This document shows positions 3,847-18,634 of a stretch of 64,000 nucleotides of DNA, piece by piece. The stretch is from Asanoa hainanensis (GTDB taxonomy: Bacteria > Actinomycetota > Actinomycetes > Mycobacteriales > Micromonosporaceae): positions 186,001 to 250,000 of the forward strand of contig NZ_FZPH01000003.1 of the NCBI RefSeq assembly GCF_900188485.1, in the 5' to 3' direction. The stretch's first letter is position 1; every line of letters begins with the position of its first letter. The notes under the pieces were generated by a model. That model did no database searches. It saw nothing but the letters and a program-made list of their open reading frames with translations, and had not been told where the DNA came from. Made by a program: the position numbers and the translations under genes.

Positions 3847-4020
3847 GATCCTCCAGCCTCCGAACGTCCCTCCCGGTCGACACATGCTTCTCGGCGGCTG
3901 ACACCCGGCGCATCCACTGAAGGGACAGCTTCAACCGCAGCTCGGACCCCCGCCACCGGCACCTCCCGGGTGCCTTTACACCCCAGGGTCGGATCCCTGG
4001 TACTCTTTCTCGGTCGCTGA

Positions 4021-4092
4021 GCCCCCGTAGCTCAGGGGATAGAGCACCGCCCTCCGGAGGCGGGGGCGCAGGTTCGAATCCTGCCGGGGGCA
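4021..4092 (+). tRNA. tRNA-Arg (anticodon CCG)
   Basis: A full cloverleaf can be drawn. The acceptor stem is GCCCCCG (4021-4027) with CGGGGGC (4085-4091) and discriminator A4092. The D-stem is GCTC/GAGC. The anticodon stem is CCGCC (4047-4051) with GGCGG (4059-4063) around loop CTCCGGA, placing anticodon CCG at 4054-4056. The T-stem is GCAGG/CCTGC around TTCGAAT. It reads CGG arginine codons, which are frequent in this DNA. No CCA is encoded. Confidence 0.97.
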
Positions 4093-4130
4093 CAATTTAT
4101 CGATCGCTCCGCGAGCGAGAAATTGTGCTT
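4091..4130 (+). terminator. Terminator hairpin immediately after tRNA-Arg
   Basis: CACAATTT (4091-4098) pairs with AAATTGTG (4120-4127), with an inner TCGCTC (4104-4109)/GAGCGA (4113-4118) stem, followed by the T-rich CTTATTCCTT. The left arm begins on the last two bases of the tRNA. This is the most classical Rho-independent terminator in the window. Confidence 0.75.
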
Positions 4131-4141
4131 ATTCCTTGCCT

Positions 4142-4200
4142 GGGGCCCGAGCCCCAGACCCCACGCCGTGGGGCTCTGCCCCCGGACCCCGCCCGGACCG
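4142..4200. repeat. Palindromic GGGGC/GCCCC intergenic repeat cluster
   Basis: Successive short inverted repeats (GGGGC/GCCCC at 4142-4155; CCCCAC/GTGGGG at 4159-4173) are followed by GCCCCCGGACCCCGC. This resembles the small palindromic intergenic repeats scattered through many actinomycete genomes. The rest of 4201-4374 shows nothing recognisable. Confidence 0.4.
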
Positions 4201-4374
4201 CCGGCGTTGACGCTGTCTGACCCGGTTCACTTTCCCGGTGGCGGTCGTGGTGATTCAGACACTCGTCAGGTTCTGGGCAAGCCGCGTACGTGCGGCTCGG
4301 CTCGTGCCACGCCTCGCCCTCGAAACGGACCGCGACGACCGAGTCTTGGGCCAGGCCCGGCATAAGCTCCGACC

Positions 4375-4908
4375 GTGGTGTACCGGATCGAGCGGCATGA
4401 GCCGGACGTGTTGCGGCTGTTCAACGACGACCTGCTGGTCGATCAGGACGTCGAGCAGGAGGACGACACGTTGGCCGACATCGAACGCTGGGGTACCGGC
4501 GTCGCCTGGGCCGAGGACTACACCTGCATCGCCCGGTGGGACGCCGAGCCCATCGGCGATCGTTGGCAGGTGTTGGTCGGTGTGGCGTACCGGTATGTGT
4601 GCTGGCAACTCGACGGCGTGAGCGCGTGGGACGAGATCGGACCGGACGGCTGGTGCAGTCGGCACGTCGAGATGGGACCGGACGGACGCTACACGGCTGC
4701 GGCCGAGTCCGCTGCGGTGATCGAGGCAAGGGACACCGGCGGCGCCCACGCGGTCAGCGCCTACGAACGGGTGTACGGCGTCGTGCCCGAGTCGGCCTTT
4801 GGCCCGGACGCCGAGCCGCATCTGACGCCGATCAACGGCCGCGCGTTCCACGACCAGTGGATAGCGGCGCGAAGCGCGCTCGACCCTCAAGGTGGTCCGA
4901 CACCCTGA
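4375..4908 (+). CDS. Hypothetical acidic cytoplasmic protein
   Basis: 177 residues, acidic and aromatic-rich (many Asp/Glu/Trp), with no signal peptide or membrane segment and no motif I recognise. The stretch from residue 10 to 40 contains clustered acidic residues (VDQDVEQEDD). Third-position GC fits a real gene. Tandem GTG codons at 4375 and 4378 are both possible starts. It stands alone between the tRNA region and the TetR-controlled SDR. Confidence 0.6.
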   Translation: MVYRIERHEPDVLRLFNDDLLVDQDVEQEDDTLADIERWGTGVAWAEDYTCIARWDAEPIGDRWQVLVGVAYRYVCWQLDGVSAWDEIGPDGWCSRHVEMGPDGRYTAAAESAAVIEARDTGGAHAVSAYERVYGVVPESAFGPDAEPHLTPINGRAFHDQWIAARSALDPQGGPTP

Positions 4909-4944
4909 CGACGTCATACGAGTCGTGGCAGGTGCGGATGTCCG

Positions 4945-5112
4945 TCATCGTTCCGCCGACAACTCGTGGCGGAGATCAGTCGCGCCGGTCCAGATGAGGT
5001 GCCGCAGGTCCCCAGCCCAATGCCCCTGGGCGTGCTCTCGAAGGAGCGCAGCGGCCTCGTCCAGGTTCGCAATGAAACCGGCGAATCGCGCGTCAAAGTC
5101 GCCCTCAGTCAC
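4945..5112 (-). CDS. Possible small protein or gene remnant (55 aa)
   Basis: A GTG-initiated frame directly after an in-frame stop. It encodes a helical peptide with stretches such as ANLDEAAALLREHAQGHWAG. The tryptophan-containing helix is reminiscent of short actinobacterial proteins in which a similar helix begins a longer domain, so this may be a truncated copy. No clear ribosome-binding site. Weak call. Confidence 0.3.
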   Translation of the reverse strand: MTEGDFDARFAGFIANLDEAAALLREHAQGHWAGDLRHLIWTGATDLRHELSAER

Positions 5113-5247
5113 TCACGAACGGTAAGACGCCGTGCATTCTCATCGACAGAAGCGGATACGGCGATGAGGTGGCCGGTGCCCCGCCGAGGCCGCACGCCGT
5201 GGTCCACGCCTGGGTGACCGCCGTCACGGGCCAGCCCGTTGCGGCGG

Positions 5248-5290
5248 GTAAACAGATCTGTTTACTGTTGTCGGAAACAGGTCTGTTTAC
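5248..5290. promoter_or_regulatory. Two tandem palindromic operators upstream of the SDR gene
   Basis: GTAAACAGATCTGTTTAC (5248-5265) is a perfect 18-bp palindrome. GGAAACAGGTCTGTTTAC (5273-5290) is a near-perfect copy whose centre lies 25 bp further on. The same motif occurs at 7296-7315 upstream of the TetR gene, so the TetR protein at 7380-7958 very likely binds here. The second box abuts the SDR ribosome-binding site AAGGAGAGG (5292-5300), which suits repression. Confidence 0.75.
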
Positions 5291-5309
5291 CAAGGAGAGG
5301 GGCAGTGTT

Positions 5310-6005
5310 ATGCGGATCGAGGACGCGACGGTGCTGGTCACCGGCGGCAATCGGGGTATCGGGAAGTCGCTGGTCGCGGAGGCGTTGGCGCGCGGGGCGC
5401 GCAAGGTCTATGCCGCCGCGCGGAATCCGGAGGCGGTCACCAACCCGGACGCCGTGCCGGTGGCGCTGGATATCACCGACCCGGCGTCGATCACCGCAGC
5501 GGCCGAGCGCCTCACCGACGTCGACATCCTGATCAACAACGCGGGCGTGCATCTCGGCGGGGAGATCCTGGTCGACGAGCTCGACAAGATCCGTCGGGAG
5601 ATGGAGGTCAACTACTTCGGGCCGCTGCAGGTCTCGCGGGCGTTCGCGCCGATCCTCGCCGCCAACAACGGCCACCTGCTGACCATCAACTCAGGGCTGT
5701 CGTGGGCCGTGGTGCCGGACTACTCGTCGTACTCGGCGACAAAAGCGGCCTCGTGGATGATGACGAACGCCTTGCGCCTGGAGCTGGTAGCGCACGGTGT
5801 CGGCGTCACGAGCCTGCACGTCGGCTGGACCGACACCGACATGGTCGCGCACCGTAGCGACGAGAAGGTGCCGCCCGCGCAGGTGGCGCGCGAGGCGTTC
5901 GCCGGCATCGAGGCGGATGCCCTGGAGGTAGTGGTCGGCGAGGGCGCCTCGCAGTTGAAGGCCGCCCTGGCGCTGGACCCGAGCGTCCTCTACGGCGCCC
6001 GCTAG
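5310..6005 (+). CDS. Short-chain dehydrogenase/reductase (TetR-controlled)
   Basis: 231 residues. Classical SDR fold: nucleotide-binding TGGNRGIG near residue 11, NNAG near 76, catalytic Ser and YSATK near 140-146. The substrate cannot be read from sequence. The ATG at 5310 is chosen because AAGGAGAGG lies just upstream and two operator palindromes precede it. An earlier in-frame start at 5169 would run through the operators. It is monocistronic and convergent with the acetolactate decarboxylase gene; their stop codons overlap in CTAG. Confidence 0.9.
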   Translation: MRIEDATVLVTGGNRGIGKSLVAEALARGARKVYAAARNPEAVTNPDAVPVALDITDPASITAAAERLTDVDILINNAGVHLGGEILVDELDKIRREMEVNYFGPLQVSRAFAPILAANNGHLLTINSGLSWAVVPDYSSYSATKAASWMMTNALRLELVAHGVGVTSLHVGWTDTDMVAHRSDEKVPPAQVAREAFAGIEADALEVVVGEGASQLKAALALDPSVLYGAR

Positions 6006-6775
6006 CCGCCCTCGCTCTGGCGGATCTGCTTGCCGATATCGGCCCCTGAGAGGTTGGCCCGCGCGAACTCCGGCGTTCGAGGCAGGCTCAGGTGCAGTTG
6101 CGACTCCGTGCAGACGCGCACCTCGCCGTCGGTCAGCTCGAAGTCGAGGCTGTGCCCGCCGTGCTGGTGGTCGTCGGTGAGGAAATGCAGGTGGTAGCCG
6201 GCAACGGAGATGCCCTGTTCGTACTCGGGGGTGCGGAAGCCGGCCAGGTCGCCGTCGCGTTCGTCGAACGTGGTGACGGCCTGGCCGGCGGTGGCCTTGG
6301 TCAACGGTGGGTACGGCTGCTTCTGCGCCATCACGGTTCTGGTCTCGACGCTCCGGAAGTGGCCGTGGATTCGTACCGCCGCCGTCATGTTCGTGGTGGG
6401 CAGGGCCTGGTCGATCCGCGTGAGCAGATCCGCGCGCTTGATCGGGGCGTCGACCCGCAACGTGGTCGAGGGCCGGAACCAGGTCACCGCCGCGAACGGA
6501 GTCCGGTCGTCCGGCGCGGCGATGCGCGCGCTGCCGTCGGCGCGGAGATGGTGGCATCTGCCGTCGAGGATCACCATCTCGCCGTCGAGCCGGTTGAAGG
6601 TGCCGAGGCCGAAGTCGCCGTGCGAAAGCAGCTCGGCGATCGTGACGTCGCCGTCGTAGAGGCCGTCGAGTAGCGCACCCATCGTCGAGGTCTGGTAGAT
6701 CTCGTTGGTGCCTGTCCGGTGGTGCAGAGTCGCTCGTGCCCACGCTCGGAACCGGTCGTACGCGTCCGCGGCCAT
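6002..6775 (-). CDS. alsD: Acetolactate decarboxylase
   Basis: 257 residues. Converts alpha-acetolactate to acetoin and CO2, the second step of acetoin/2,3-butanediol formation. Family signatures are IYQTSTMGALLDGLYDGD near the N-terminus, HGDFGLGTF, and the zinc-ligand stretch GYHLHFLTDDHQHGGH near residue 190. The start is 2 nt after the stop of the preceding chimeric gene, so the two are translationally coupled. Its natural partner, acetolactate synthase, survives only as a C-terminal fragment upstream. Substrate would therefore have to come from another acetolactate synthase, for example IlvBN. Confidence 0.92.
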   Translation of the reverse strand: MAADAYDRFRAWARATLHHRTGTNEIYQTSTMGALLDGLYDGDVTIAELLSHGDFGLGTFNRLDGEMVILDGRCHHLRADGSARIAAPDDRTPFAAVTWFRPSTTLRVDAPIKRADLLTRIDQALPTTNMTAAVRIHGHFRSVETRTVMAQKQPYPPLTKATAGQAVTTFDERDGDLAGFRTPEYEQGISVAGYHLHFLTDDHQHGGHSLDFELTDGEVRVCTESQLHLSLPRTPEFARANLSGADIGKQIRQSEGG

Positions 6776-6777
6776 GG

Positions 6778-7263
6778 TCAGATCAGCACTTCCTCGTGCA
6801 GCTGGGCCGCGATGTCCGTGCTGTGGCTGTAGTCGACGGGTGCGTCGATGATGGACACTCCGTTCTCGGCGAGGGCGCGCTCCAGTGTGGACGCGAACTG
6901 CGCCGGGCCGTCCAGGCGGTAGCCGTGCGCGCCGAACGCGCGCGCGTAGGCGGTGATGTCATAGTCGCCGAGCTGGACGCCCGACTGGCGGATCCGCACG
7001 CCGGCCATGAACTCGACCTCGACCTGCGGTGGGATCGCCCCGGCCAGCGGGTCCACGCCGGTGCGCCGGATGAGCTCGCCGATCATCGGCGGAATCTCTT
7101 CGCCAGCAGCCAGGAACTCGATGGCTTCGGGTGCGAGAGCCGGTGCGAGCGATCGCGGTCCGAGAAAGGCGACCCCGTGCCCGCGCCGTTTCATGGCACG
7201 GGCCATCGGCAACAGTGGCAAAACGTGCCCGAATACCGGAACGGACGTAAAGAGAATGCGCAT
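6778..7263 (-). pseudogene. Chimeric remnant: glycosyltransferase N-terminus fused to acetolactate synthase C-terminus
   Basis: 161 codons, fully in frame. Residues 1 to about 91 match the N-terminal domain of a macrolide/UGT-type (GT1) glycosyltransferase: MRILFTSVPVFGHVLPLLPM, the HV motif and AFLGPR. From about residue 92 the sequence is the last 70 residues of acetolactate synthase AlsS: LGDYDITAYARAFGAHGYR, then IIDAPVDYS. The glycosyltransferase acceptor/donor domains and the AlsS thiamine-diphosphate core are absent, so neither activity should remain. The junction lies near 6990. The simplest history is an in-frame deletion between a glycosyltransferase gene and alsS that left alsD under the glycosyltransferase promoter, which carries a TetR operator. 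Confidence 0.75.
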
Positions 7264-7295
7264 GCGATACCCCCGGAAAGCGTAGTTCTATTCCC

Positions 7296-7348
7296 AGGAA
7301 ACAGACCTGTTTCCTAAATCGGCATGAAGGTACACCGACCTGTTTTGC
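7296..7348. promoter_or_regulatory. TetR operator between the chimeric gene and tetR
   Basis: AGGAAACAGACCTGTTTCCT (7296-7315) is a 20-bp near-perfect palindrome of the same type as the boxes at 5248 and 5273. A weaker half-site, GACCTGTTTT (7337-7346), follows 33 bp on. The position fits autoregulation of tetR and control of the minus-strand operon. Confidence 0.7.
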
Positions 7349-7379
7349 GGACGCAACCCGGGGAGCTAAGCTTGCCGGC

Positions 7380-7958
7380 ATGGCAGACCCGCGCCAGCCG
7401 GACGAGGTACGAGACCGCGTGCTCGCGACCGCGCGACAGCTCTTCAACCACCAGGGCATCAACGCCACCGGCGTCGACCTCCTCTCGGAGCGCGCCGGCG
7501 TGTCGAAGCGGACGCTCTACCAACGCTTCCGCACCAAGGACGACCTGATCGCGGCCTACCTCACACAGGAAACCGAGTGTTTTCTCGAGGATCTGCTCCC
7601 ACCGGACGACAGCGGCAAACCACCGGCGGAACGCATCGTCTCGGTTTTCTCGGCAGTTAGGGAAAAGTCGCAGGATCCGGACTTCCAGGGCTGCCCGGTC
7701 CTGAACACGACCGCCGAAATCCGCGACCCGGCCCATCCGGCGCGCGTAGTCGGACTCACCTACAAACAATGCCTGCAGCAATTCTTCGCCGACGAGGCCC
7801 GGGCAGCCGACGCCACCGATCCGGACCAACTCAGCGAGCAGCTGGTGATGCTCTTCGACGGTGCCATGTCCTATTCGGCGGTGCGCGGCACGCCCATTCC
7901 CCACAGCATCGAGGTCGCTGTGCGCACCCTCGTCGACGCCGCCATCCCGCCTGCTTAG
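7380..7958 (+). CDS. TetR/AcrR family regulator
   Basis: 192 residues. The N-terminal TetR HTH (about 10-55) includes ATGVDLLSERAGVSKRTLYQ and RFRTKDDLIAAYL. The C-terminal ligand domain (60-190) has a cysteine at GCPVLNTT. It is divergent from the chimeric gene/alsD operon and linked by identical palindromes to the SDR at 5310, so it is the likely repressor of all three. The inducer is unknown. The stop codon overlaps that of the downstream convergent gene. Confidence 0.92.
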   Translation: MADPRQPDEVRDRVLATARQLFNHQGINATGVDLLSERAGVSKRTLYQRFRTKDDLIAAYLTQETECFLEDLLPPDDSGKPPAERIVSVFSAVREKSQDPDFQGCPVLNTTAEIRDPAHPARVVGLTYKQCLQQFFADEARAADATDPDQLSEQLVMLFDGAMSYSAVRGTPIPHSIEVAVRTLVDAAIPPA

Positions 7959-8950
7959 CCGGAAGTCGGCTCCGTCGCCGCGCGGGCGAGTGCCTGCTTG
8001 GTTCGGTCGCGGAGGCCTTCGAGCTCGGTTGTGCTGCCTCTGACGTCGATGATCAGCTCGGCCGCGGCCAGCAGGTGTTCGAGGGCGATGACGTCCTCGT
8101 CTAACGGCGCGTCTTCCTCGAACTGGTCTAGCAGAGGCGCGAAATCGGCCAGTACGTCTTCGGCGAACCTCGCGGCCCGGTCCGGATCGCCGTTTCGCCG
8201 GATGCAGCGTGCTGACTCGATCATCGCTCGTCCCACGAAAGCCGCACATTGGCCCAGCAGGCGCGTGACGATGCGTCCGACGAGGCCGAGGCCGCGCTCC
8301 TCGAGCTCGGGATCGGGCTGGGCGGCGAACTTCGCGGTGACCTGACGCGCGGCCGCGGCGAGCGCGACGCCGTCGACCCACTCCTGGGAGCCCTCCGGGG
8401 CGCAAGGCCGCTGCCCTAACCGCGCGATGCAGGCTTCGGCCGCGACCGAGATGGACGTCGCCGCTTCCAGGAGGAGATGGAAGCGCGTCTGATCCGGCTC
8501 CTGCGACGCGACCGCCAAGCGGGCCACTTCGAGCGCCACGGCGACGTCTTCGGTGCCCTGCGTGGGTTCGCCACGCCTCGCGCGGTCCAGGAGCGCCTCC
8601 GCGGACGCCCGCTCCTCCGCCGATGGTTCAACCGCGTCGTCCTCGATGGGCAACCCGAGCTCGATCCGGTACGACGTCCACGCCAGCGGGTCCTTCGCCG
8701 GGTCCGGCTCGTTGGCGGGGTTGCCGGTCGCGGCACGTACGACTCCGCCGGCGACCCGGTCCAGTGCGAGCCGGGCGTCGTCGAACGGCAGGGCGAACCG
8801 CTCGGTCAGGACGGCAAGGACCTCGCGCCGGGGCGTCCCAGACTTGTCCGCCGCGCGCAGGTACGAGACCAGAGCGAACGTCGATGTTCCGCGAGCGAGA
8901 CGCACAGTCAGGTCGTCAGTCCATTGCACGGCATCGAGGATGCCCGTCAC
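7955..8950 (-). CDS. Unknown helical protein coupled to the nucleotidyltransferase
   Basis: 331 residues from a GTG at 8950 that overlaps the nucleotidyltransferase stop as GTGA. Predicted almost entirely alpha-helical, acidic, without signal peptide, membrane helix or recognisable motif. The N-terminal 90 residues (ILDAVQWTDDLTVRLARGT and on) look like a compact domain. A Glu/Ala-rich linker (about 108-135) leads to a longer helical bundle. The 4-nt overlap implies production in step with the nucleotidyltransferase, so it may be its substrate, partner or inhibitor. I do not recognise the family. Confidence 0.75.
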   Translation of the reverse strand: MTGILDAVQWTDDLTVRLARGTSTFALVSYLRAADKSGTPRREVLAVLTERFALPFDDARLALDRVAGGVVRAATGNPANEPDPAKDPLAWTSYRIELGLPIEDDAVEPSAEERASAEALLDRARRGEPTQGTEDVAVALEVARLAVASQEPDQTRFHLLLEAATSISVAAEACIARLGQRPCAPEGSQEWVDGVALAAAARQVTAKFAAQPDPELEERGLGLVGRIVTRLLGQCAAFVGRAMIESARCIRRNGDPDRAARFAEDVLADFAPLLDQFEEDAPLDEDVIALEHLLAAAELIIDVRGSTTELEGLRDRTKQALARAATEPTSG

Positions 8951-9714
8951 GACCTTGAACGACAACCCGGTTCGGCGGCGAACAGGGCCTCCGCGGCCGC
9001 CACCGCACTGGTCAGCACCGCCGGCTCCGGTCGGAGCCCGGCCACGATCGTGTCGAGGGCGCGTAGGCCCGCCCGGTCCAGCAGCCGCTTCTCGTTGGTG
9101 ACCCACGCGCCGCGAGCGGCGAGAACGGCGTGACCGGTCTGCATCGCGGCGGTGACCAGGGTGCCGGCGACCTCGGCGGCCTGGCCCCGCGGCGCGTAGG
9201 AGCCTCGGGCGTACCCGAGCGTCATGGCGGCCCGCTGCCGCCACACCGGCGGAGCCGCCAAACGCAGCGCCGCCGGGAACTCCGGGCGCGGCAGCGTGCC
9301 GCGTAGCACCTGGTTGACGGCGAGCTCGGCGACCAGCAGGTAGCTCGGGATGCCGGCGAGATGGAACATCAGCGGCTCCCAGTGGAACCGGCCCTGCCGC
9401 GCCTCGGCCAGCTCGTGGTCGACCACGTCGAGATCGCGGTAGTGCACGTCGACGCGGCGCCCCTCGATGGTGAGCCAGGCCCCGCCGTTGAAGACCCCGC
9501 CGCCCCAGCCACCGAGCGCGGAGACCTCGCCGGCCCAGCCCACCGCGCGCAGGTCCGCCGGATCGAACGCGCCCCGGTAGTAGACGGCCAGGTCCCAGTC
9601 GCTCTCCGGGGTGTGGGTGCCTTCCGCGCGGGACCCGCCGAGCGTCACCGCCTCGACGGCGGGCAACGCGGCAAGCCGGTCGGCGACAGCATCCAGGAAC
9701 GTGTGGTCGCTCAT
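8947..9714 (-). CDS. Nucleotidyltransferase (Pol beta superfamily)
   Basis: 255 residues from the ATG at 9714; an alternative ATG at 9732 adds 6 residues. The N-terminal NTase core has the signature GGSRAEGTHTPESDWDLAVYY (about 24-44, GS followed by DxD) and a third acidic residue in RRVDVHYRDLD. The C-terminal half is helical, as in aminoglycoside or lincosamide nucleotidyltransferase-like proteins. It probably transfers a nucleotide to a small molecule or protein, but the substrate is unknown. It is the first gene of a two-gene unit with the helical protein, joined by GTGA. Confidence 0.8.
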   Translation of the reverse strand: MSDHTFLDAVADRLAALPAVEAVTLGGSRAEGTHTPESDWDLAVYYRGAFDPADLRAVGWAGEVSALGGWGGGVFNGGAWLTIEGRRVDVHYRDLDVVDHELAEARQGRFHWEPLMFHLAGIPSYLLVAELAVNQVLRGTLPRPEFPAALRLAAPPVWRQRAAMTLGYARGSYAPRGQAAEVAGTLVTAAMQTGHAVLAARGAWVTNEKRLLDRAGLRALDTIVAGLRPEPAVLTSAVAAAEALFAAEPGCRSRS

Positions 9715-9746
9715 GGAAGTACATCCCAGCATTAGGACTCACCACG

Positions 9747-10751
9747 ATGAATTGCGGTGGTGTGGCACTCTGCGGAACCGTGCAAGGGGAACCGGCGTCG
9801 ACGGCGAGGGACGAAGCCGAAGCGAGCCTGACCTGGCGTCGCTTCCCGGCGGGTCGGGGGCGCATCGTCGCGAACCGGTGGCTCGACCGCCGGCGCGCTC
9901 TTCTGTTCGTCGCGTGGTTCTGCCTCGTGCTGGTGCCGGCCTTGGCATTGATCTCGTGGGCGGCACGGGTTGGCGGCGTCGCGGGGTTCGTTCTTCTTGC
10001 CGTCGCCGTGGTGGTCGCGTTCTACGTCCCCGTCTTACCGATGGTGAGCGTCGGCGAATGGCGCACCACCGTCAACTCGGCGAGCGCGATCGACGGGCAC
10101 ACCCTGTTGACGAAGCACGGGCAGCGGCAGCCGATCGATCAGGACCTGCACGCGGGCGTCATCGAGGTCCTCGAGCCGGGCTGGCGCCGCGGCCGAGCGC
10201 ACGTCCTCGGGGTGCACACCGACCCGGCGATGGACGGCTCGCTCGATCTCGTCGGCCTCGTCCTGCTGCCCCTGCTTCCCGTCGTGAAGGCGCGTCGGCG
10301 GGCGACGCCCTGGCGGTTGCTGAGCAACCCGGCCACCGGCGAGCTCCGGGACGCGCGCGACCTGCGGCAACTGGCCGACGTGTTGTGCGCGTCGCCGATG
10401 GAGCGCGACCGGGTGGTTGGACGGACGGTGCTGGCGTTGAGCGCGCGGGCCGCCGACACCACGGCGGCGCAGCCGGAGCCCGACGAGCTGCCGCGCGGCG
10501 TCTGGACCGCGCTCAAATCGGTCGGACGGACGCTGCCGTTGCTGCCCGCGATCCTGGTCACGATCGTGGTCGGCGGTTCGATCGAGGCGTGGCGGGAGAC
10601 GGGAGCAGGCGACGCGGTGGCGAATACGGCTGTCCACATCCTCCTGCTCTCGGGAGTGGCAGCCGCGGCCTCGTGGTCGGTGTACTTCCTCTACCGGCTG
10701 GGCGGCCTGCTCGCGGCGACGGTTCGCGCCGCCGCACGGCTGAGGCGCTAA
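9747..10751 (+). CDS. Integral membrane protein of unknown function
   Basis: 334 residues with about four transmembrane helices. Two lie near 49-70 and 74-98, directly after a basic WRRFPAGRGRIVANRWLDRRR segment. A cytoplasmic region (about 100-260) follows, then two more helices near 268-288 and 300-322. The N-terminal 30 residues are not membrane-like, and a later GTG could be the true start. No family recognised. It is divergent from the nucleotidyltransferase pair and convergent with the MFS gene, sharing stop codons. Confidence 0.65.
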   Translation: MNCGGVALCGTVQGEPASTARDEAEASLTWRRFPAGRGRIVANRWLDRRRALLFVAWFCLVLVPALALISWAARVGGVAGFVLLAVAVVVAFYVPVLPMVSVGEWRTTVNSASAIDGHTLLTKHGQRQPIDQDLHAGVIEVLEPGWRRGRAHVLGVHTDPAMDGSLDLVGLVLLPLLPVVKARRRATPWRLLSNPATGELRDARDLRQLADVLCASPMERDRVVGRTVLALSARAADTTAAQPEPDELPRGVWTALKSVGRTLPLLPAILVTIVVGGSIEAWRETGAGDAVANTAVHILLLSGVAAAASWSVYFLYRLGGLLAATVRAAARLRR

Positions 10752-12178
10752 GAGCGGACAACCGCGTCGCGACCAGCTGGTACGGGGTCCGTTCGCACCG
10801 CTGAGGCGGGTTGTGCGCCGGGTAGCCACAGGGACAGGACCACGGCAACGGCGGAGAAGGCGACCGACCACCAGAAGGCGACGTGGAACGCCGAAGCCGC
10901 TGATTCGTGGTGGGCGGTGGCCGCTGCCAGGATCACCGCGAGCACGGCCGTCCCGAACGAGCCACCGATCTGTTGCGCCGTGCGGGTCAGGACGCTGGAG
11001 TGCGGGATCTGCTGCTTCTCCAGTCCGATGTAGCCGGCCACCATCACGGGCATGGTGACGGCTCCCAGGCCGAAGCCGCGGACGACCATCCAGAAGGCCA
11101 GCAGCCAGGCGCTGGTGTGCGAGTCGGCCAGCGCGAACGGGACCGTCGCCGCGGCCACGACGAGAAAGCCGGCCAGGGCGATGACGCGGGCGCCGAAGCG
11201 GTCGACGTTGCTTCCGACGACGGTGCGGGACAACAGGGCACCCACGCCCTGGGGTACGAGCATGAGCCCGGCGGTCAGCGACGTCGTGCCGCGCACGCCC
11301 TGGTAGTAGAGGGGCATCAGCAGCATCGCGCCGTACAACGAGAAGCCCGAGAAGAACAGCACCGCGCTCGACGAGGCGACGGATCGCTTGGCCAGCAAGC
11401 CGATCTCGACGAGCGGGTGGCTCTTGCGCAACGCGTACCCGATGAAAGCCACGAGCAACGCGATGCCCGACGCGAGCGGGACGACGACGTCAGGATGGGC
11501 GAAGCCGGCGGCGGTGCCCGCGTTGGCCAAGCCCAGCAGGACCAGCAGGATGCCCGGCGCGACGAGGACGAGCCCGACGACATCGAGCCGGGCCCGGGTC
11601 CGGTCCGGCGCGTCGAGGTGCAGGTAGCGCTGGACGAGCAGGAGGCCGGCCACACAGAACGGCACGTTCACCGCGAACATGAACCGCCAGCTCAGATGGG
11701 TCAGGATCGCGCCGCCGATCAGCGGGCCGAGGATCGGGCCGAGCAGCGCCGGCAGCGCCACATACGTCACCAGCCGGCCCAGCGACCTCCCGTGCGCCGC
11801 TTGGAAGATCAGCGTCGTCATCAGCGGGAGCATGAGGCCACCGCCGATGCCCTGGACCACCCGCCACCCGATCAGCGAGTCGACGTTCCACGCCAGGCTG
11901 GCTCCGACCGAGCCCAAGAGGAACACCGACAAGGCGAACATCCACAGGCGCTTGCCGCCGAAGCGTTGGAGGCCCCAGGTGCTCAGCGGCACCGCGATGC
12001 CGAGGGCCAGCAGGTAGCCCGTGGTCACCCACTGGATCGTCGTGACCGAGGTGTCGAGCTTCGCCGCGAGGGTGTGCAGGGCGACGCTGACGATCGTCGT
12101 GTCGAAGACGACGGCCATCGCGCCGACGATCAAGATCAGGGCGGTCCGCACCACCCCGGAGTCCAGCTTCTCGTCCAT
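10748..12178 (-). CDS. MFS multidrug exporter (DHA2/EmrB-QacA type)
   Basis: 476 residues with about 14 hydrophobic segments. The N-terminal motif FDTTIVSVALHTLA and motif C-like GPILGPLIGGAI are typical of drug:proton antiporters of the DHA2 family. It is divergent from the TetR gene at 12278, with two inverted-repeat operators between them, so it is expected to be derepressed by the exported compound. Substrate not predictable. Confidence 0.9.
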   Translation of the reverse strand: MDEKLDSGVVRTALILIVGAMAVVFDTTIVSVALHTLAAKLDTSVTTIQWVTTGYLLALGIAVPLSTWGLQRFGGKRLWMFALSVFLLGSVGASLAWNVDSLIGWRVVQGIGGGLMLPLMTTLIFQAAHGRSLGRLVTYVALPALLGPILGPLIGGAILTHLSWRFMFAVNVPFCVAGLLLVQRYLHLDAPDRTRARLDVVGLVLVAPGILLVLLGLANAGTAAGFAHPDVVVPLASGIALLVAFIGYALRKSHPLVEIGLLAKRSVASSSAVLFFSGFSLYGAMLLMPLYYQGVRGTTSLTAGLMLVPQGVGALLSRTVVGSNVDRFGARVIALAGFLVVAAATVPFALADSHTSAWLLAFWMVVRGFGLGAVTMPVMVAGYIGLEKQQIPHSSVLTRTAQQIGGSFGTAVLAVILAAATAHHESAASAFHVAFWWSVAFSAVAVVLSLWLPGAQPASAVRTDPVPAGRDAVVRS

Positions 12179-12194
12179 GCGGGTCCGCCTTCAT

Positions 12195-12257
12195 TAAGAG
12201 AGGTGTTCTTCTCTTACGAAGCTAGGCGCCCGCTTTAAGGAACGCAAGCCTCTCTTA
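12195..12257. promoter_or_regulatory. Two TetR operators between the MFS exporter and tetR
   Basis: TAAGAGA-N8-TCTCTTA (12195-12216) is a perfect inverted repeat. TAAGGAA-N8-TCTCTTA (12236-12257) is an imperfect second copy centred 41 bp away. The pair spans the whole divergent promoter region and predicts joint repression of exporter and regulator. Confidence 0.75.
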
Positions 12258-12277
12258 TCGCTGGTACGCTGTGCCGC

Positions 12278-12868
12278 ATGACCGAACAGGCGCAACCCAC
12301 GCGGCGACGGCGCGGGGAGGCGCTCGAGAACGCGCTGTTGGAGACCGCCTGGGACGAGCTCGTCGAGGTCGGCTTCGCCCGGCTGACGATGGAGTCGGTC
12401 GCGGCCCGCGCGCGCACGGGGGTCGCGGTGCTCTACCGGCGCTGGCCGCGCAAGGACGACCTCGTACTCGCCGCGATCCAGCATTTCGGCGAGACGCACC
12501 CGATCGAGGTCCCGGACACCGGGAGCCTGCGCGGCGACATGATCGCGTTGCTCCGGGGAGCCAGCAACGGCCGCGTCCCCTTCGTCACGGTCGTCAGCGC
12601 CGCCTTCTCGGGCCTGCTGGCCAGCAGCGGCCTCACGCCGGCCCAGGTGCGCGAGAAGCTGCTCGGCGATCGCCAGCCGAGGTCGACGGCGCTCTACCGC
12701 CGGGCACACGAGCGGGGCGAGATCGACCTCGGCCGCATCCCGCCGGCCGTCCTGACGATGCCCTTCGATCTGATGCGCCACGACATGCTGATGACCTTCC
12801 AGCCCATCAGCGACAAGCGGATCCTGGAGATCGTGGACGACCTGTTCCTGCCGCTCGTGACCGCCTGA
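12278..12868 (+). CDS. TetR/AcrR family regulator of the MFS exporter
   Basis: 196 residues. The N-terminal HTH (about 15-60) includes FARLTMESVAARARTGVAVL and YRRWPRKDDLV, followed by a TetR C-terminal domain with SAAFSGLLAS. It is divergent from the MFS gene with two TAAGAGA-type operators in between. Convergent with the ArsR gene, 4 nt between stops. Confidence 0.92.
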   Translation: MTEQAQPTRRRRGEALENALLETAWDELVEVGFARLTMESVAARARTGVAVLYRRWPRKDDLVLAAIQHFGETHPIEVPDTGSLRGDMIALLRGASNGRVPFVTVVSAAFSGLLASSGLTPAQVREKLLGDRQPRSTALYRRAHERGEIDLGRIPPAVLTMPFDLMRHDMLMTFQPISDKRILEIVDDLFLPLVTA

Positions 12869-12872
12869 CGTC

Positions 12873-13235
12873 TCAGGCCGTCGGCGTCAGCGCCGAGGTG
12901 TCGAGCAGTTGGGACAGCGGCGCGAGGGCGCTCGGGATCACCCAGTAGTAGACCCAGGTGCCGCGGCGCTCGCAGTCGATCAGGCCGGCTTCGCGCAGCA
13001 CGCGCAGGTGGTGCGAGATCGTCGGGCCCTTGACCGCGAACGCGTCCGTCAGGTCGCAGACACACACCTCGTTGCCGCCGCGGGCGGCGATCATCGAGAG
13101 CAGCCGCAGGCGCACCGGGTCGCCCAGCGCCTTGAATCCCCTCGCGAGGTCGACGGCGGCCGCCTCGGTCAGCGCCTCGTCGACCATCGGCGGGCAACAG
13201 GCGAGCGCGCTGACATCCGTGAGCTCCAGTTCCAT
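12873..13235 (-). CDS. arsR: ArsR family arsenite-responsive repressor
   Basis: 120 residues from the ATG at 13235; a GTG at 13241 is an alternative. Winged-helix ArsR/SmtB fold with FKALGDPVRLRLLSMI and recognition helix PTISHHLRVLREAGL. Two candidate arsenite-binding cysteine sets are present: a CC pair near residues 13-14, as in the Corynebacterium-type ArsR, and CVCDL at the position used in the R773-type ArsR. It is divergent from arsM, and two TTGAC-N5-ATCGAA elements lie between them. Expected to repress arsM and itself until As(III) binds. Confidence 0.9.
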   Translation of the reverse strand: MELELTDVSALACCPPMVDEALTEAAAVDLARGFKALGDPVRLRLLSMIAARGGNEVCVCDLTDAFAVKGPTISHHLRVLREAGLIDCERRGTWVYYWVIPSALAPLSQLLDTSALTPTA

Positions 13236-13250
13236 CCCCACGACCCCATC

Positions 13251-13304
13251 TTGACAACTATCGAAACAGCGTGCAAGTCTCTGTCTTGACGGTTATCGAA
13301 TCAA
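13251..13304. promoter_or_regulatory. ArsR operator pair upstream of arsM
   Basis: Two direct copies: TTGACAACTATCGAAACA (13251-13268) and TTGACGGTTATCGAATCAA (13286-13304). The second also forms TTGA...TCAA. They overlap the region where the arsR and arsM promoters must lie. The arsM ribosome-binding site AAGGAGG follows at 13303-13309. Confidence 0.6.
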
Positions 13305-13315
13305 GGAGGATCAAG

Positions 13316-14101
13316 ATGGCCACGGGGTACGAACTGCCGGTGACCCGCGAGGACGTCCGGGACCGGTACGCGGCGGCGGCGCTCAAGGTGCTGGGCAAGC
13401 AGACAGGCGGCGGGTGTTGCGGATCGTCCGCGGATGCCGGCTGCTGCGGATCGGCGGCGGAGGCCGACGGTCCGCTCGGCGACCTTTATTCCGACGCGGA
13501 GCGGGCAGCGGTGCCGGGTGCGGCGGTCGAGGCGAGCTTGGGTTGCGGCAACCCGCTGATGGTCGCTGACCTGCACGCGGGCGAGACCGTGCTCGACCTG
13601 GGCTCCGGCGGCGGGATCGACGTGCTGTTGTCAGCCCGTCGGGTCGGGCCGACCGGCAAGGCCTACGGCCTGGACATGACCGACGAGATGCTCGACCTGG
13701 CCCGCCGCAACGCGGCCGAGGCCGGCGCGACCAACGTCGAGTTCCTGCGCGGGCACATCGAGGACATCCCGCTGCCGGCCGGCAGCGTCGACGTCGTCAT
13801 CTCCAACTGCGTGATCAACCTGTCGACCGACAAGCCGGCCGTGTTCGCCTCGACGTTCGCGGTGCTCAAGCCCGGCGGCCGGATCGGCGTCTCCGACGTG
13901 GTCGCCGACGACGACCTCACGCCGCAGGAGCGGGCCGAACGCGGCGACTGGGTCGGCTGCATCGCGGGCGCCCTGTCGTTCGCCGAGTACGAGCGGGGGC
14001 TCACCGCCGCCGGCTTCGTCGACGTGGAGATCACACCGACGCACGAGGCGGCCGCGGGCATGCACTCGGCGATCGTCCGCGCCCGCAAGCCGCAGGCGTA
14101 G
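13316..14101 (+). CDS. arsM: Arsenite S-adenosylmethionine methyltransferase
   Basis: 261 residues from the ATG at 13316 with AAGGAGG 6 nt upstream. Methylates As(III) to mono- and dimethylarsenicals using SAM. Features: Cys-rich N-terminal segment GGGCCGSSADAGCCGS (about 31-46), the SAM motif VLDLGSGGGIDVLLSA, SNCVINLSTDK and GDWVGCIAGAL, which supply the conserved arsenic-binding cysteines. Divergent from arsR and convergent with the aquaporin gene; their stop codons abut without a gap. Confidence 0.93.
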   Translation: MATGYELPVTREDVRDRYAAAALKVLGKQTGGGCCGSSADAGCCGSAAEADGPLGDLYSDAERAAVPGAAVEASLGCGNPLMVADLHAGETVLDLGSGGGIDVLLSARRVGPTGKAYGLDMTDEMLDLARRNAAEAGATNVEFLRGHIEDIPLPAGSVDVVISNCVINLSTDKPAVFASTFAVLKPGGRIGVSDVVADDDLTPQERAERGDWVGCIAGALSFAEYERGLTAAGFVDVEITPTHEAAAGMHSAIVRARKPQA

Positions 14102-14905
14102 TCAGCCGTCGTTCCCGGTGCCGCCCGCCGCCACCGGGGCGGCCGGCACCGGACCGGCCGGCACGGGGGCGGCGGGCAGGTGGGCGACCGGCACCGGACC
14201 GGCCGGCCCAGGAGCGGCCGGCACTCCGGCGTCGACCGCCGCGCGGGCATCGGGATAGAGGGCAGCCAGAGCGGCGACACCGACGACCAGGCCGACGAGT
14301 TGAGCGCCGACGAAGCCGGGCACCGACCCGGGTGCGATGCCGGCGAACGAGTCGGTCAGCATTCGGGCGACCGTCACGGCCGGGTTGGCGAAGGACGTCG
14401 AGGACGTGAACCAGTAGGCGGCGCCGATGTACGCGCCGACCGCGGCCGGCGCCACCGCCGCTCGGTTCGTGCGGGCCAGGGCGAAGACGAGCAGCACCAG
14501 GCCGCCGGTCGCGACCACCTCCCCCAGCCACAGCGGCCCGCCGCCGCGCTCGGTCGAGGAGAACGTGACGGGCCGAAGGTCGAACATCAGGTTCGCCAAC
14601 ACGCAGCCCAGCGCGCCACCGGCCAGCTGGGCCAGCACGTAGACGCCGAGCTCACGAGCTGTCAGGCGCCGGCCGAGCCACCAGTCGGCGAGCGAGACGA
14701 CCGGGTTGAAGTGCGCACCGGAAACCGGGCCGAAGACCAGGATCAGCACCGCCAGCGCGAATGCCGTCGCGAGCGAGTTCGCCAGCAGTTGCACACCGAC
14801 GTTTCCGGGCGACAGCCGGGCGGCCATGACGCCCGAGCCGACGACCGCGGCCACCAGCAGTCCGGTGCCGAGCGCCTCGGCCAGCGCCCGCCGCGCGAGG
14901 GGCAT
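14102..14905 (-). CDS. MIP/aquaporin family channel of the ars operon
   Basis: 267 residues with six transmembrane helices and the two half-helix motifs HFNPVVS (NPA variant, about 65) and FANPAVTVAR (about 190). A C-terminal tail of about 40 residues is built of Ala/Pro/Val/Gly repeats such as PAAPVPAGPVPAAPV. The ATG shares one base with the arsC stop (TGATG). In Sinorhizobium meliloti, aquaglyceroporin AqpS together with ArsC gives arsenate resistance by letting arsenite leave passively. The same job is likely here because no ArsB or Acr3 pump is present in the locus. Confidence 0.85.
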   Translation of the reverse strand: MPLARRALAEALGTGLLVAAVVGSGVMAARLSPGNVGVQLLANSLATAFALAVLILVFGPVSGAHFNPVVSLADWWLGRRLTARELGVYVLAQLAGGALGCVLANLMFDLRPVTFSSTERGGGPLWLGEVVATGGLVLLVFALARTNRAAVAPAAVGAYIGAAYWFTSSTSFANPAVTVARMLTDSFAGIAPGSVPGFVGAQLVGLVVGVAALAALYPDARAAVDAGVPAAPGPAGPVPVAHLPAAPVPAGPVPAAPVAAGGTGNDG

Positions 14906-15318
14906 CACCGGGAGACCGGCACGTGCAGCTCCGCCAGCAGGAGCCGCACCCGCCGCTCGATCTCGTCGCGCACCGGGCGCACCTCGGCCACGCCTTTGCC
15001 CGCCGGGTCGTCGAGCTCCCAGTCGACGTAGCGCTTGCCCGGAAACCACGGGCACGTGTCGCCGCAACCCATGCTGACCACCACGTCGGCGGCCCGCACC
15101 ACGTCGTCGGTCCACGGCTTCGGATACTCGCGCGAGATGTCGATGCCCCGCTCGCGCATCGCCGCCACGGCCGCCGGGTTCACCGCGTCGGCCGGCTCCG
15201 ACCCGCCGGACCAGGCGACCGCGGCGTCCCCGGCGAGATGCTGGAAGAACCCGAGCGCCATCTGACTGCGGCCCGCGTTGTGCACGCAGAGGAAGAGCAC
15301 GGCGGGGCGGTCAGACAC
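14905..15318 (-). CDS. arsC: Arsenate reductase, low-molecular-weight phosphatase type
   Basis: 137 residues. LMW-PTP fold with the P-loop VLFLCVHNAGRSQMA at the N-terminus and further cysteines in VSMGCGDTCPWFPG, as in thioredoxin- or mycothiol-linked ArsC. It reduces arsenate to arsenite. It overlaps the fused ArsR-phosphatase gene upstream by 8 nt and the aquaporin gene downstream by 1 nt, forming a tight operon. Confidence 0.92.
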   Translation of the reverse strand: MSDRPAVLFLCVHNAGRSQMALGFFQHLAGDAAVAWSGGSEPADAVNPAAVAAMRERGIDISREYPKPWTDDVVRAADVVVSMGCGDTCPWFPGKRYVDWELDDPAGKGVAEVRPVRDEIERRVRLLLAELHVPVSR

Positions 15319-15988
15319 GGTCGGGACCTTCCAGGACGGGGACCAGGCGCTCGACCCGGTCCGCGATCTCCTCGTACGCCCGCTCGAACGCCGCGTCGGT
15401 GTCGACGCGCGCGGGATCGGGGATCGACCAGTGCATCGCGGCCGGCGTGCCGGAGCGCTCGTGCGCCTGGTCGCACACCGAGATCACCAGGTCGCCCGGC
15501 CGGACGACCTGGTCGACGTGCACCGGACGCACGCGGCCGAGGCGCACTCCGTGGCGCCGGCCGACCCGCACCGCCCGCGGATGAACCTTCGCGGCCGGCT
15601 CCGTCCCGCCCGACGCCGTCGCGACCGCGGCCCGCTCGGCCAGCAGAGCCGCGGCCAACTGCGAGCGCGCCGAGTTGTGCGTGCACACGAAGACCACCCG
15701 TGGCGCCCGAATCGGCCGGGGTGCGAGCAGGCCCGCGAGCACCTCCCGCCGCAGCCGCAGATAGCTGCGCCGCCGGTCACCCTCCGACCTGGTCTTCGAG
15801 ATCAGGCTCGCGTCGGACAGCACGCCGAGGTGGTGCGCGATCAGGTTCGTCGGAAGGTCCAACAGCTGCGCCAACTCACCAGGTGACGCGTCGCTGACCG
15901 CGAGCCGGTCCACGATCGCCAACCGCGCCGGGTCACCGAGCGCCGCGTGGACCCGGGCCCGCTCGACCAAAGAAGCCTCAGTGTTCAT
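15311..15988 (-). CDS. ArsR-LMW phosphatase fusion
   Basis: 225 residues. Residues 1-90 form an ArsR-type winged helix (HAALGDPARLAIVDRLAVSD and LPTNLIAHHLGVLSDASL). Residues 95-225 form a low-molecular-weight phosphatase/arsenate reductase-like domain with the P-loop VVFVCTHNSARSQLAAALLA. It is the first gene of the fusion-arsC-aquaporin operon. Such fusions occur in actinomycete ars loci. Whether the second domain reduces arsenate or only senses it cannot be told from the sequence. Confidence 0.88.
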   Translation of the reverse strand: MNTEASLVERARVHAALGDPARLAIVDRLAVSDASPGELAQLLDLPTNLIAHHLGVLSDASLISKTRSEGDRRRSYLRLRREVLAGLLAPRPIRAPRVVFVCTHNSARSQLAAALLAERAAVATASGGTEPAAKVHPRAVRVGRRHGVRLGRVRPVHVDQVVRPGDLVISVCDQAHERSGTPAAMHWSIPDPARVDTDAAFERAYEEIADRVERLVPVLEGPDRV

Positions 15989-16005
15989 TGAGGCAATGAT
16001 GATTG
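15986..16005. promoter_or_regulatory. Overlapping inverted repeats at the start of the ars operon
   Basis: CATTG-AGG-CAATG (15986-15998) and CAAT-GATG-ATTG (15994-16005) overlap each other and the start codon of the ArsR fusion. The position suits autorepression by the ArsR domain. Confidence 0.45.
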
Positions 16006-16007
16006 AG

Positions 16008-17140
16008 CTATCCCCCGGCCGTCAAGCTGAAGGCGAGGCCGCCCGAGATCGAGTGGGTCGGCGACAGGCCCGTGGTCACCGCCGAAGCCCGGTTGCTCGA
16101 CTCGAATCCGCCGATGCCGAGTTGACCCCTGTTGTTCTCGCCCCACGCCCGCACGCCACCGTGGGTGATCGCGAGGCTGTGGCCGTTGGCGCTGAAGCCG
16201 TCGTAACCGGCGGCGACAGCCGAAGCCCCGGTCAGGCCGAGTACGTCGACGGGTACGAGGCGCGGCGTGTTCGTGCCGTCGCCGAGCTGGCCGGACGCGT
16301 TGCTGCCCCACGCCTTGACCCGGCCGTTGGTCGGCAGCGCCAAGGAGTGGCCGAACCCGCCGTCAACGGACTTGACCCGCACGCCGCGCAGGCCGACCAC
16401 CGCGACCGGGGTGGGCTGCACGCTGACCGCGTTGCTGCCGTTTCCGACCTGGCCCTCGTTGTTGAGGCCCCAACCGCGCGCCGAGCCGTCGGCCAGCACC
16501 GCCAAGCTGTGGAACAGGCCCGCGCCGATGCTCGTCGCCCGCTGCGGGAGCGGCACCGTGAGCGGCACCGGGTGCGGCTGGTTGTCGGCCGTGCCCTGGC
16601 CGAGCTCGCCAGAGCTGTTGAGTCCCCAGGCCAGGACGGTGCCGTCGGCCAGCAGGGCCAGCGCGGTGCTGTTTCCGGCGGCGATCGCGGTCACGTGACC
16701 AGGCAGCCCCAAAACCTCGACCGGAAGGGTGCGGTCCGATGTGGTGCCGTCGCCCAGTTGGCCCGACGAGTTCTGGCCCCAGGCGCGCAGCGTGCCGTCC
16801 CGCAGGAGGGCGAGGCTGAACCGGCCGCCGGCGGCAACGGCCGTGACCTCACGCAGGCTGGCCACGCTTCCCGGGATCGGTCGCGAGGTGTGCGTGCCGT
16901 CATCGAGCTGGCCGAAGTCGTTGCCTCCCCAGGCTTTCACCGTGCCGTTGGACAGCAGGGCCAGGCCGTGCCTGGCACCCGCGGAGACCGCCCGCACGGT
17001 GTGCGGGCCGGCCACGGTCACCGCTGACGGCCGGGTCTCCGTCTCCCCGACCGTCCCGATGCCTAGCTGTCCGACGAAGTTGTATCCCCAGGATTCGGCC
17101 TGGCTGCCATCCCGACTCGGCGCTGCCGACTCGCATCTGT
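16008..17140 (-). pseudogene. RCC1-repeat protein copy without a start or signal peptide
   Basis: The frame encodes seven RCC1-type repeats of the form AWG-N-SGQLGDG, ending FSLTAGG. It is closely similar to the neighbouring gene at 17203-18441. Reading upstream, homology continues to AESWGYNFVGQLGIG (about 17100). No ATG, GTG or TTG is found in frame between there and the upstream stop, and the signal peptide region is missing. The first usable start (GTG, 17021) would cut into the first blade. It lies directly downstream of a 14-bp terminator hairpin. Probably a 5'-truncated tandem duplicate. Confidence 0.7.
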
Positions 17141-17156
17141 TTCCCGCGGTGAGAAA

Positions 17157-17196
17157 CGACGAGGGCCTCGCCCGGATCCGGTCGAGGCCCTCGTCG
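17157..17196 (-). terminator. 14-bp stem terminator between the RCC1 copies
   Basis: CGACGAGGGCCTCG (17157-17170) pairs perfectly with CGAGGCCCTCGTCG (17183-17196) around a 12-nt loop, directly after the stop of the intact RCC1 gene on the minus strand. No T-tract. Confidence 0.75.
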
Positions 17197-17202
17197 GCGT
17201 GG

Positions 17203-18441
17203 TTAGGAAGCCAAGCTGAACTGGAAGCCGGCCGAGATCGACCGCGTCGTAGCCAGGCCTGTGGTCACCGGCTGAGCCCGGTTGGTCGACTCGGTGCTCC
17301 CGATCCCGAGCTGACCCCTGTTGTTCTCGCCCCACGCCAGCACGTCGCCGCGGGCGATCGCGAGGCTGTGCCCGAAGGGGCTGCCGCCGGTGTAGCCGGC
17401 CGCGACGGCGGTCGCGCCGGTCACGCCGAGCACGTCGACCGGGGTGTTCGACTCGGTGTTGGTGCCGTCGCCGAGCTGGCCGGCGGTGTTGCTGCCCCAG
17501 GCCTTGACGCGGCCGTTGGTGAGCAGGGCCAGTGTGTGGCCGAACCCGCCGTCCACGGACTTGACGCGTACGCCGGACAGGCCCAGGGTGGCGACCGGGC
17601 TGGGCTGCGGGGTGACGAAGTTGCCGATCCCGAGCTGGCCGGAGCCGTTGGCACCCCAACCGCGGAGCGAGCCGTCGGCCAGCACCGCGAGGCTGAAGAA
17701 CTCGCCCGCGCCGATGCTCGTCGCCCGCTGTGGCAGGGGCACCTCGAGCGGCGCCGGGTGCGGCTGGTTGTCGGCCGCGCCCTGCCCGAGCTCTCCGTCA
17801 CGGTTGTTGCCCCACGCCAGCACGGTGCCGTTGGCCAGCAACGCCAGGGCGGTGCCGTCGCCGGCGGCGATCGCGGTCACGCGACCGGGCAGCCCGGAGA
17901 CCTCGACCGGGAGACTCCGGTTGGCGGTGGTGCCGTCGCCCAGCTCACCCGAGAAGTTCCCACCCCATGCCCGGAGCGTGCCGTCCCGCAGGAGGGCGAG
18001 GCTGAAATGGCCGCCGGCCGCGACGGCCGTGACCCCGCTCAAGCCCGCGACGCTGCCCGGGATCGTGCGCGAGACCTGGGTGCCGTCACCGAGCTCCCCG
18101 GACTCGTTGGATCCCCATGCTTTCACCGTGCCGTTGGAGAGCAACGCCAGGCCGTGGTTGTCACCCGCCGAGACCGCGCGCACGGTGTGCGGGCCGGCCA
18201 CCGTCACGGCCGTCGTCCGGAACTCCGTTATCCCGGCCGAACCGATGCCGAGCTGTCCGACGGAGTTGCTTCCCCAGGCTTCGGCGTGACTACCGCGCTG
18301 GCCACCGCCCCCGCCGTGATCACCCCAATCGCCACCGGTCGGTGCCGCCGACGCCGGCGCGCCCAACACACTAGGCAGGGCCAGCAACGCCCCGACAACT
18401 ACGGCGGCGAGACGGCGCCGCCCTATGACCTGTGCCCGCAT
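17203..18441 (-). CDS. Secreted seven-bladed RCC1-repeat protein
   Basis: 412 residues from the ATG at 18441; the run GGGGGGAAG upstream serves as ribosome-binding site. An earlier in-frame start at 18501 would precede the signal peptide. The signal peptide (RRRLAAVVVGALLALPSVLG, cleavage near ASAAP) is followed by a Gly-rich linker. Seven RCC1 repeats follow, each with an AWG-x-N-x-x-GxLGxG core (for example AWGSNESGELGDG), giving a beta-propeller. The role of bacterial extracellular RCC1 proteins is unknown; adhesion or ligand binding is plausible. Confidence 0.88.
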   Translation of the reverse strand: MRAQVIGRRRLAAVVVGALLALPSVLGAPASAAPTGGDWGDHGGGGGQRGSHAEAWGSNSVGQLGIGSAGITEFRTTAVTVAGPHTVRAVSAGDNHGLALLSNGTVKAWGSNESGELGDGTQVSRTIPGSVAGLSGVTAVAAGGHFSLALLRDGTLRAWGGNFSGELGDGTTANRSLPVEVSGLPGRVTAIAAGDGTALALLANGTVLAWGNNRDGELGQGAADNQPHPAPLEVPLPQRATSIGAGEFFSLAVLADGSLRGWGANGSGQLGIGNFVTPQPSPVATLGLSGVRVKSVDGGFGHTLALLTNGRVKAWGSNTAGQLGDGTNTESNTPVDVLGVTGATAVAAGYTGGSPFGHSLAIARGDVLAWGENNRGQLGIGSTESTNRAQPVTTGLATTRSISAGFQFSLAS

Positions 18442-18582
18442 ATGGCTTCCCCCCGGTGAATGCGAACGCGGGCTGACCGCGCAAAAGCGCAGCTCAGCCA
18501 CCCTGCGTCACATTACGCACTCAGGCCACTCCAGACCCGGGAAAAACTCACACGGCTGTGCGTCCAGCCACACGCGGCTAAC

Positions 18583-18634
18583 CGGACTCGCGAGACCGGT
18601 TACGCTCGACCGCGATCCGGACTAGCGAGTCCGC
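18583..18634. promoter_or_regulatory. Two palindromic operators upstream of the MFS gene
   Basis: CCGGACTCGCGAGACCGG (18583-18600) and CCGGACTAGCGAGTCCGC (18617-18634) are direct copies of one palindrome, 34 bp apart. The second lies just before the ribosome-binding site. A TetR-type repressor is expected, but none is encoded next to the gene. Confidence 0.65.

Follow-up and report, generated by a model that had tools for sequence, protein, structure and literature searches.

The window, as we call the whole 64-kb stretch of DNA analysed here, lies inside the 754-kb contig 24 of an 8.64-Mb genome, probably of an actinomycete to judge by its genes, that is assembled in 44 contigs and is 99.97% complete. 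At positions 7263-6778, on the minus strand, it carries a single open reading frame of 161 codons, from ATG to TGA, whose two parts have different parents. Its first 91 codons (6991-7263) correspond to the beginning of a GT-B glycosyltransferase of the CalG1/EryCIII-like kind, judged by protein, structure and DNA matches, and its last 70 codons with the stop (6778-6990) correspond to the end of a catabolic acetolactate synthase, AlsS, judged by protein, profile and DNA matches. Downstream on the same strand follows a full-length, 257-aa alsD for acetolactate decarboxylase (6002-6775; PF03306 at 273 bits, TIGR01252, structure 6j92). The locus is completed by two plus-strand genes: a short-chain dehydrogenase (SDR) gene at 5310-6005 (PF00106 at 121 bits), which converges with alsD so that their ends overlap by 4 nt, and a TetR-family regulator at 7380-7958 (PF00440, PF16925), divergent from the fused frame. 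The SDR start was picked by eye, and the Pfam scan used 5313-6002.

Two gene fragments share one reading frame

In protein comparisons, residues 1-98 of the fusion are 65% identical to an intact 376-aa glycosyltransferase of the congener G005, itself EryCIII-like (PF06722, PF21036), and residues 92-161 are 86% identical to an intact 559-aa AlsS of the congener G001. Codon by codon, the likeness changes from one parent to the other between codons 91 and 92 (6990/6991), and DNA searches of the congeners gave matches that abut at the same place, the alsS-alsD pair of G001 matching 6003-6991 and the glycosyltransferase gene of G005 matching 6991-7264. Among solved structures, residues 92-155 match the chain ends of catabolic acetolactate synthases (best E 5e-12) and residues 1-81 match CalG1 (3otg residues 21-102, E 6.6e-5), with a weak match of the N-terminal part to a rhamnosyltransferase as well. 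There is no stop or frameshift in either half. The in-frame fusion is real and sharply defined: an earlier sequence-only reading had described residues 1-91 as glycosyltransferase and residues 92-161 as AlsS with no stop between them, and comparing the halves separately confirms this, with the coordinates right and the frame on the minus strand.

A draft assembly in 44 contigs invites the explanation that the junction is an assembly error uniting two loci, but we regard this as extremely unlikely. The junction is internal to a 754-kb contig and, besides the fused frame, nothing in the same genome resembles AlsS at more than 32% identity or the G005 glycosyltransferase at more than 34%. Had intact loci been misjoined, their missing parts should sit elsewhere in so complete an assembly; both are absent there, which leaves a misassembly unsupported.

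The fusion scores 52 bits with the AlsS model TIGR02418 (cut-off 551) and 60 bits with NF006378 (cut-off 510), and only model positions 478-537 and 487-554 (of 556), respectively, are present; the AlsS of G001 reaches 771 bits with NF006378 and 697 with TIGR02418. Placed on the G001 sequence, the AlsS-derived part begins downstream of the GDGG...N region, which we take to be TPP-binding. On the other side, residues 1-91 alone align, and only with N-terminal parts of solved glycosyltransferases. A Pfam scan of the fusion found no glycosyltransferase domain at E 0.01, and the region of the G005 enzyme that curated models match (residues 166-375 for NCBIfam, 91-164 and 260-371 for Pfam) is missing from it. 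The hybrid therefore most probably works as neither enzyme: it has lost AlsS residues 1-489, which include the presumed TPP-binding region, and, on the glycosyltransferase side, the C-terminal half that binds the donor.

Among 354 genomes of the family, searched at E 1e-10 with the ten best candidates scored in most genomes, both halves occur in one frame in this genome only. Matches were found in 31 genomes at 34 places, a single one of which, the fusion itself, covers residues 1-161. The 27 other places that start at residue 1 end at residues 85-98 (23 places), 110-112 (three) or 79 (one), and all six AlsS-type places start at residue 92. Within the genus, three of six genomes give a match at E 1e-6, and the chimera is present in one. 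A scan of GTDB found 111 stretches encoding a relative, and none of the best 80 covers residues 1-161; seven of these 80, matching from residues 17-50, lie in reading frames of 430-682 codons. None of 104 matching plasmid records covers 80% of the fusion in one place. Both of these collections may lack records from this genome or very near ones. The open-licence articles in PubMed Central yielded nothing relevant on such fusions. A full-length family with this architecture had been named beforehand as the finding that would speak against a chimera; we looked for it in the family genomes, in GTDB and among plasmids, and reject it, as only this genome among the 354, none of the best 80 GTDB stretches and none of the matching plasmid records has the exact arrangement. 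The fusion gene is so far unique, while the type of event is ordinary.

This distribution also bears on whether the hybrid might work as a novel protein, such as a regulator or a ligand binder, that combines a GT-B N-terminal piece with the tail of a TPP enzyme. The frame is open through both halves, and pairwise dN/dS is about 0.20 for each (AlsS tail 0.20, glycosyltransferase part 0.20), but these values largely record evolution before the two halves were joined. Each half is an incomplete domain and the protein occurs in one genome only, and we consider such a function very unlikely.

Chromosomal setting and origin of the join

The fusion lies beyond an edge of conserved gene order at a tRNA-Arg(CCG) gene (4021-4093, plus strand), where ordered matches to the congeners end at 4093-4250. 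For G001, G003, G004 and G005, matches that run in order from the first base of the window stop at the tRNA or at most 157 bases beyond it; in G002 the sequence leading up to the tRNA and that at the tRNA itself are on separate contigs. Order returns at 20045 in G001, the nearest congener by identity, whose intervening 14.8 kb has no match of at least 150 bases to the window. No match of that length was found beyond the tRNA in the stretches sampled from G002-G005 either (60 kb for G003 and G004, about 7 kb for G005, 20 kb either side for G002). Individual genes at 4.3-14 kb of the window match scattered places in the congeners.

Window 4093-20045 is thus a stretch of gene turnover adjoining the tRNA. 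It also includes an arsenic-type gene group at 12873-15988, with an ArsR-type regulator, an arsenite methyltransferase (NF008823, above cut-off), an aquaporin-family reading frame and a helix-turn-helix protein with a low-molecular-weight phosphatase domain, followed at 16008-18501 by two consecutive RCC1-repeat proteins of 337 and 432 aa. An integrated element at the tRNA was considered and rejected, as no integrase and no att-like repeat were found: the last 12 tRNA bases do not recur within the window, and there is no exact repeat of at least 14 bases between 3901-4400 and 4501-21000 and no integrase among 18 Pfam-scanned segments at 4375-20031, a subset of the possible reading frames that includes the fusion and alsD.

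The sequence-only reading had proposed that one deletion removed most of both genes and put alsD under the glycosyltransferase promoter. Comparison with the congeners lends a single deletion in a contiguous operon no support: intact glycosyltransferase, alsS and alsD genes do exist there, yet at the loci examined never all three side by side. The glycosyltransferase gene (G005 contig 92), the SDR-TetR pair (G005 contig 11) and alsS-alsD (G001 contig 6) occupy three separate places, and no contiguous glycosyltransferase-alsS-alsD arrangement occurs among the loci examined. A broken alsS'-alsD piece joined into a glycosyltransferase gene by rearrangement explains the locus equally well. Considering the scattered matches, the turnover stretch and the lack of a contiguous locus, a join of pieces that came from different places is no less likely than a single deletion.

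The divergent TetR gene, the SDR gene and operator-like palindromes

A perfect copy of a probable TetR operator, AAACAGACCTGTTT, is found at 7299-7312, between the TetR gene and the fusion, with a second operator-like copy (two mismatches) at 7332-7345; two further perfect copies, at 5250-5263 and 5275-5288, precede the SDR gene. Allowing up to two mismatches, the 14-mer AAACAGNNCTGTTT occurs four times in the 64-kb window, always at the fusion locus, and in shuffled controls four occurrences were reached in none of 100 (mean 0.14), so the clustering is not due to chance. The earlier claim of a TetR operator ahead of the fusion is strengthened by these palindromes, putative operators before both the fusion and the SDR gene, to which the divergent regulator would bind; TetR control appears likely.

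On contig 11 of G005 an orthologous SDR gene (79% identity) adjoins a TetR gene whose product is 66% identical to that of the window, and a perfect copy of AAACAGNNCTGTTT stands before the aligned SDR start; regulator, SDR gene and one of the predicted operators are therefore kept as a set in that congener. Further SDR-TetR neighbours, at 41-52% identity, are present in congeners and in the genome studied here. From the G005 pair with its 14-mer and these other neighbours, the SDR and TetR genes seem to be a long-standing pair, between which the fusion-alsD unit would have arrived later. The two genes stand tail to tail in G005 and TetR has the opposite orientation in the window; because TetR is inverted relative to SDR, the fusion locus has been rearranged. 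At 13 glycosyltransferase loci, searched with flanks of about 1.5 kb at E 1e-6, the window TetR had no relative, so an old TetR-glycosyltransferase pairing gains no support. A sigma-70 scan of 5000-8000 gave no promoter-like site; such scans cover actinomycete-type promoters poorly.

alsD without alsS, and a possible source of acetolactate

Searched with the AlsS of G001, the genome yields the 86% tail in the fusion together with eight TPP enzymes that share 24-32% identity with the query. Curated models place six of them in other families: one is a biosynthetic acetolactate synthase (NF005860, 1138 bits, cut-off 881), another an acetolactate synthase of the PRK05858 type (877 bits, cut-off 587), and four satisfy the models of pyruvate dehydrogenase (PRK09124), a PRK08199-type protein, IolD and benzoylformate decarboxylase. 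The remaining two pass none of the models listed, and none of the eight reaches an AlsS cut-off where AlsS models are listed. The genome is without an intact AlsS and has an intact gene for biosynthetic acetolactate synthase. With no other AlsS present, a different enzyme would have to supply acetolactate, in agreement with the earlier suggestion that it must be made elsewhere. As background, one article states for Corynebacterium glutamicum that the acetohydroxyacid synthase encoded by ilvBN can make acetolactate, a precursor of branched-chain amino acids (PMC4625470). The AlsD of the window may draw on the biosynthetic acetolactate pool.

AlsD is present in 8 of 300 family genomes, and AlsS stands beside it in six of the seven other than this one. 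The exception is G005, which has no AlsS at E 1e-6 when searched with the AlsS tail of the chimera (all 56 candidates scored). Its alsD, on contig 64 (8725-9495 of the segment), has no alsS neighbour and occupies a place different from those of the two alsD genes of the present genome. The second of these, also without alsS, is on contig 23 (positions 7267-8037 of segment 163000-178000), in the order NUDIX-DinB-alsD-sigma factor; the counterpart in G001 is NUDIX-alsS-alsD-sigma factor, a DinB-family gene occupying the place of the G001 alsS. In G002, G003 and G004 the NUDIX-DinB and sigma-factor matches are 12-216 bases apart with no alsD between them, and none of the three has AlsD anywhere; G005 has the NUDIX-DinB part at this site and no alsD. 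Within the genus, three alsD genes (window, contig 23, G005 contig 64) are without an intact alsS beside them and one has it. Across the class, AlsD was found in 34 of 394 genomes at E 1e-15, and 24 of 29 loci from 29 of the 33 other genomes have no AlsS relative better than 24% identity near alsD, within about 1.5 kb on each side or less at some contig ends. A stand-alone alsD is not unusual more widely.

The alsD gene behind the fusion

The alsD product scores 268 bits with TIGR01252 (cut-off 181) and matches 6j92 at E 1.5e-72, with GYHLHF...GGH aligned and the HxH...H histidines, presumably metal ligands, kept; it is predicted to be an acetolactate decarboxylase that converts 2-acetolactate to acetoin. 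Its start is 2 nt past the stop of the fusion (TGA-CC-ATG), a ribosome-site-like stretch is kept in the AlsS tail, and over the 29 bases from TGCACGAGGAAGT to the ATGG of alsD the window and G001 differ once. The 2-nt gap, the ribosome-site-like stretch and the full-length AlsD support the claim of an intact alsD adjoining the fusion with signals for translational coupling, which may operate here. The further statement that the fusion heads an acetoin operon is right in that alsD follows; the wording is generous, as alsD stands alone before the convergent SDR gene. Instead of the intact alsS of an alsSD operon, only the last 70 alsS codons lie beside it.

A tree of 16 AlsD proteins places the window copy as the sister of (G005,(G001, contig 23)); support is 96/91 for the group of those three and 100/99 for all four. 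The window copy may be a second alsD long present in the genus, or one acquired by transfer from a close relative. Its branch is the longest in the genus clade (0.18 against 0.04-0.11). In all eight outgroup comparisons, which are not independent as they use the same two tails, the AlsS tail of the window has more unique changes than that of G001 (3-5 against 0-2), an excess that fits weak decay.

These observations suit the view that the whole unit is decaying, with the fusion a pseudogene remnant and alsD redundant, without a role and still present only because the event is recent. The second alsD on contig 23 and the position of the locus in a high-turnover stretch point the same way. At the same time, alsD is full length, has kept its HxH...H and, compared pairwise with its three nearest relatives, shows dN/dS of 0.29-0.38, neither fusion half has acquired a stop or frameshift, and the operator-like palindromes and the alsD junction are retained; on balance we consider decay of the whole unit unlikely, if by no means far-fetched.

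Discussion

We think it fairly probable that the relic hybrid is a translated leader that put alsD in the TetR regulon. An illegitimate join in a fast-turnover stretch of the chromosome would have linked codon 91 of the glycosyltransferase gene to codon 490 of alsS (G001 numbering), keeping, on one side, the glycosyltransferase start with the TetR-flanked region upstream of it and, on the other, the AlsS tail, the ribosome-site-like stretch and the TGA-CC-ATG junction of alsD. With these two ends kept, the fused frame could serve as a leader carrying alsD, transcribed from the upstream region, and would bring alsD, like the SDR gene, under the divergent TetR; the acetolactate that AlsD decarboxylates would come from a biosynthetic acetolactate synthase of the IlvB type. 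The separated halves, the kept alsD junction, the full-length alsD, the palindromes and the lack of a second AlsS all argue for the leader, as does the recurrence of an alsD without neighbouring alsS on contig 23 and in G005. Against it weigh the sigma-70 scan without a promoter-like site, the excess of unique changes in the AlsS tail and the 13 glycosyltransferase loci with no TetR relative close by. The in-frame state of the fusion could be luck, at a chance of about one in three, and the alsD of the window may be dispensable because the genome has another.

More tentatively, and with a good deal of doubt, we suggest that the acetoin branch of this genus is being rebuilt around AlsD alone, that a chance fusion captured alsD into the TetR/SDR regulon with its frame kept for the translation of alsD, and that AlsD acts as a regulated vent for acetolactate of the branched-chain pathway. 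If the leader reading is true, the locus is a snapshot of regulatory capture, in which an intact metabolic gene comes under a different regulator by way of a damaged gene pair that survives as a translated leader; it raises the question of whether AlsD can function without AlsS, fed by the valine/leucine pathway. Its general importance is limited because the fusion is so far singular.

Chimeric leader reading frames and deletion-fusion pseudogenes are a known general kind, with which the locus shares an in-frame join and an intact downstream gene under a foreign upstream region; there is no difference in principle, and the glycosyltransferase/AlsS pair was seen nowhere else in the collections searched. 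Stand-alone acetolactate decarboxylases fed by an anabolic acetohydroxyacid synthase are likewise known, and the resemblance here lies in an alsD in a genome with no AlsS and with a biosynthetic acetolactate synthase, the difference being that the window alsD has a fused AlsS tail as its putative leader. The fusion resembles GT-B glycosyltransferases of the CalG1/EryCIII group over its first 91 residues and lacks their C-terminal donor-binding half. Compared with an alsS-alsD (budB-budA) operon, the locus agrees with the intact operon of G001 in the stop, the 2-nt gap and the ribosome-site-like stretch, but is without the first 489 residues of AlsS. The regulator near the fusion is of the TetR type, whereas the alsR of Acetobacter is described, in the portion of the article on which we rely, as LysR-type (PMC8148554).
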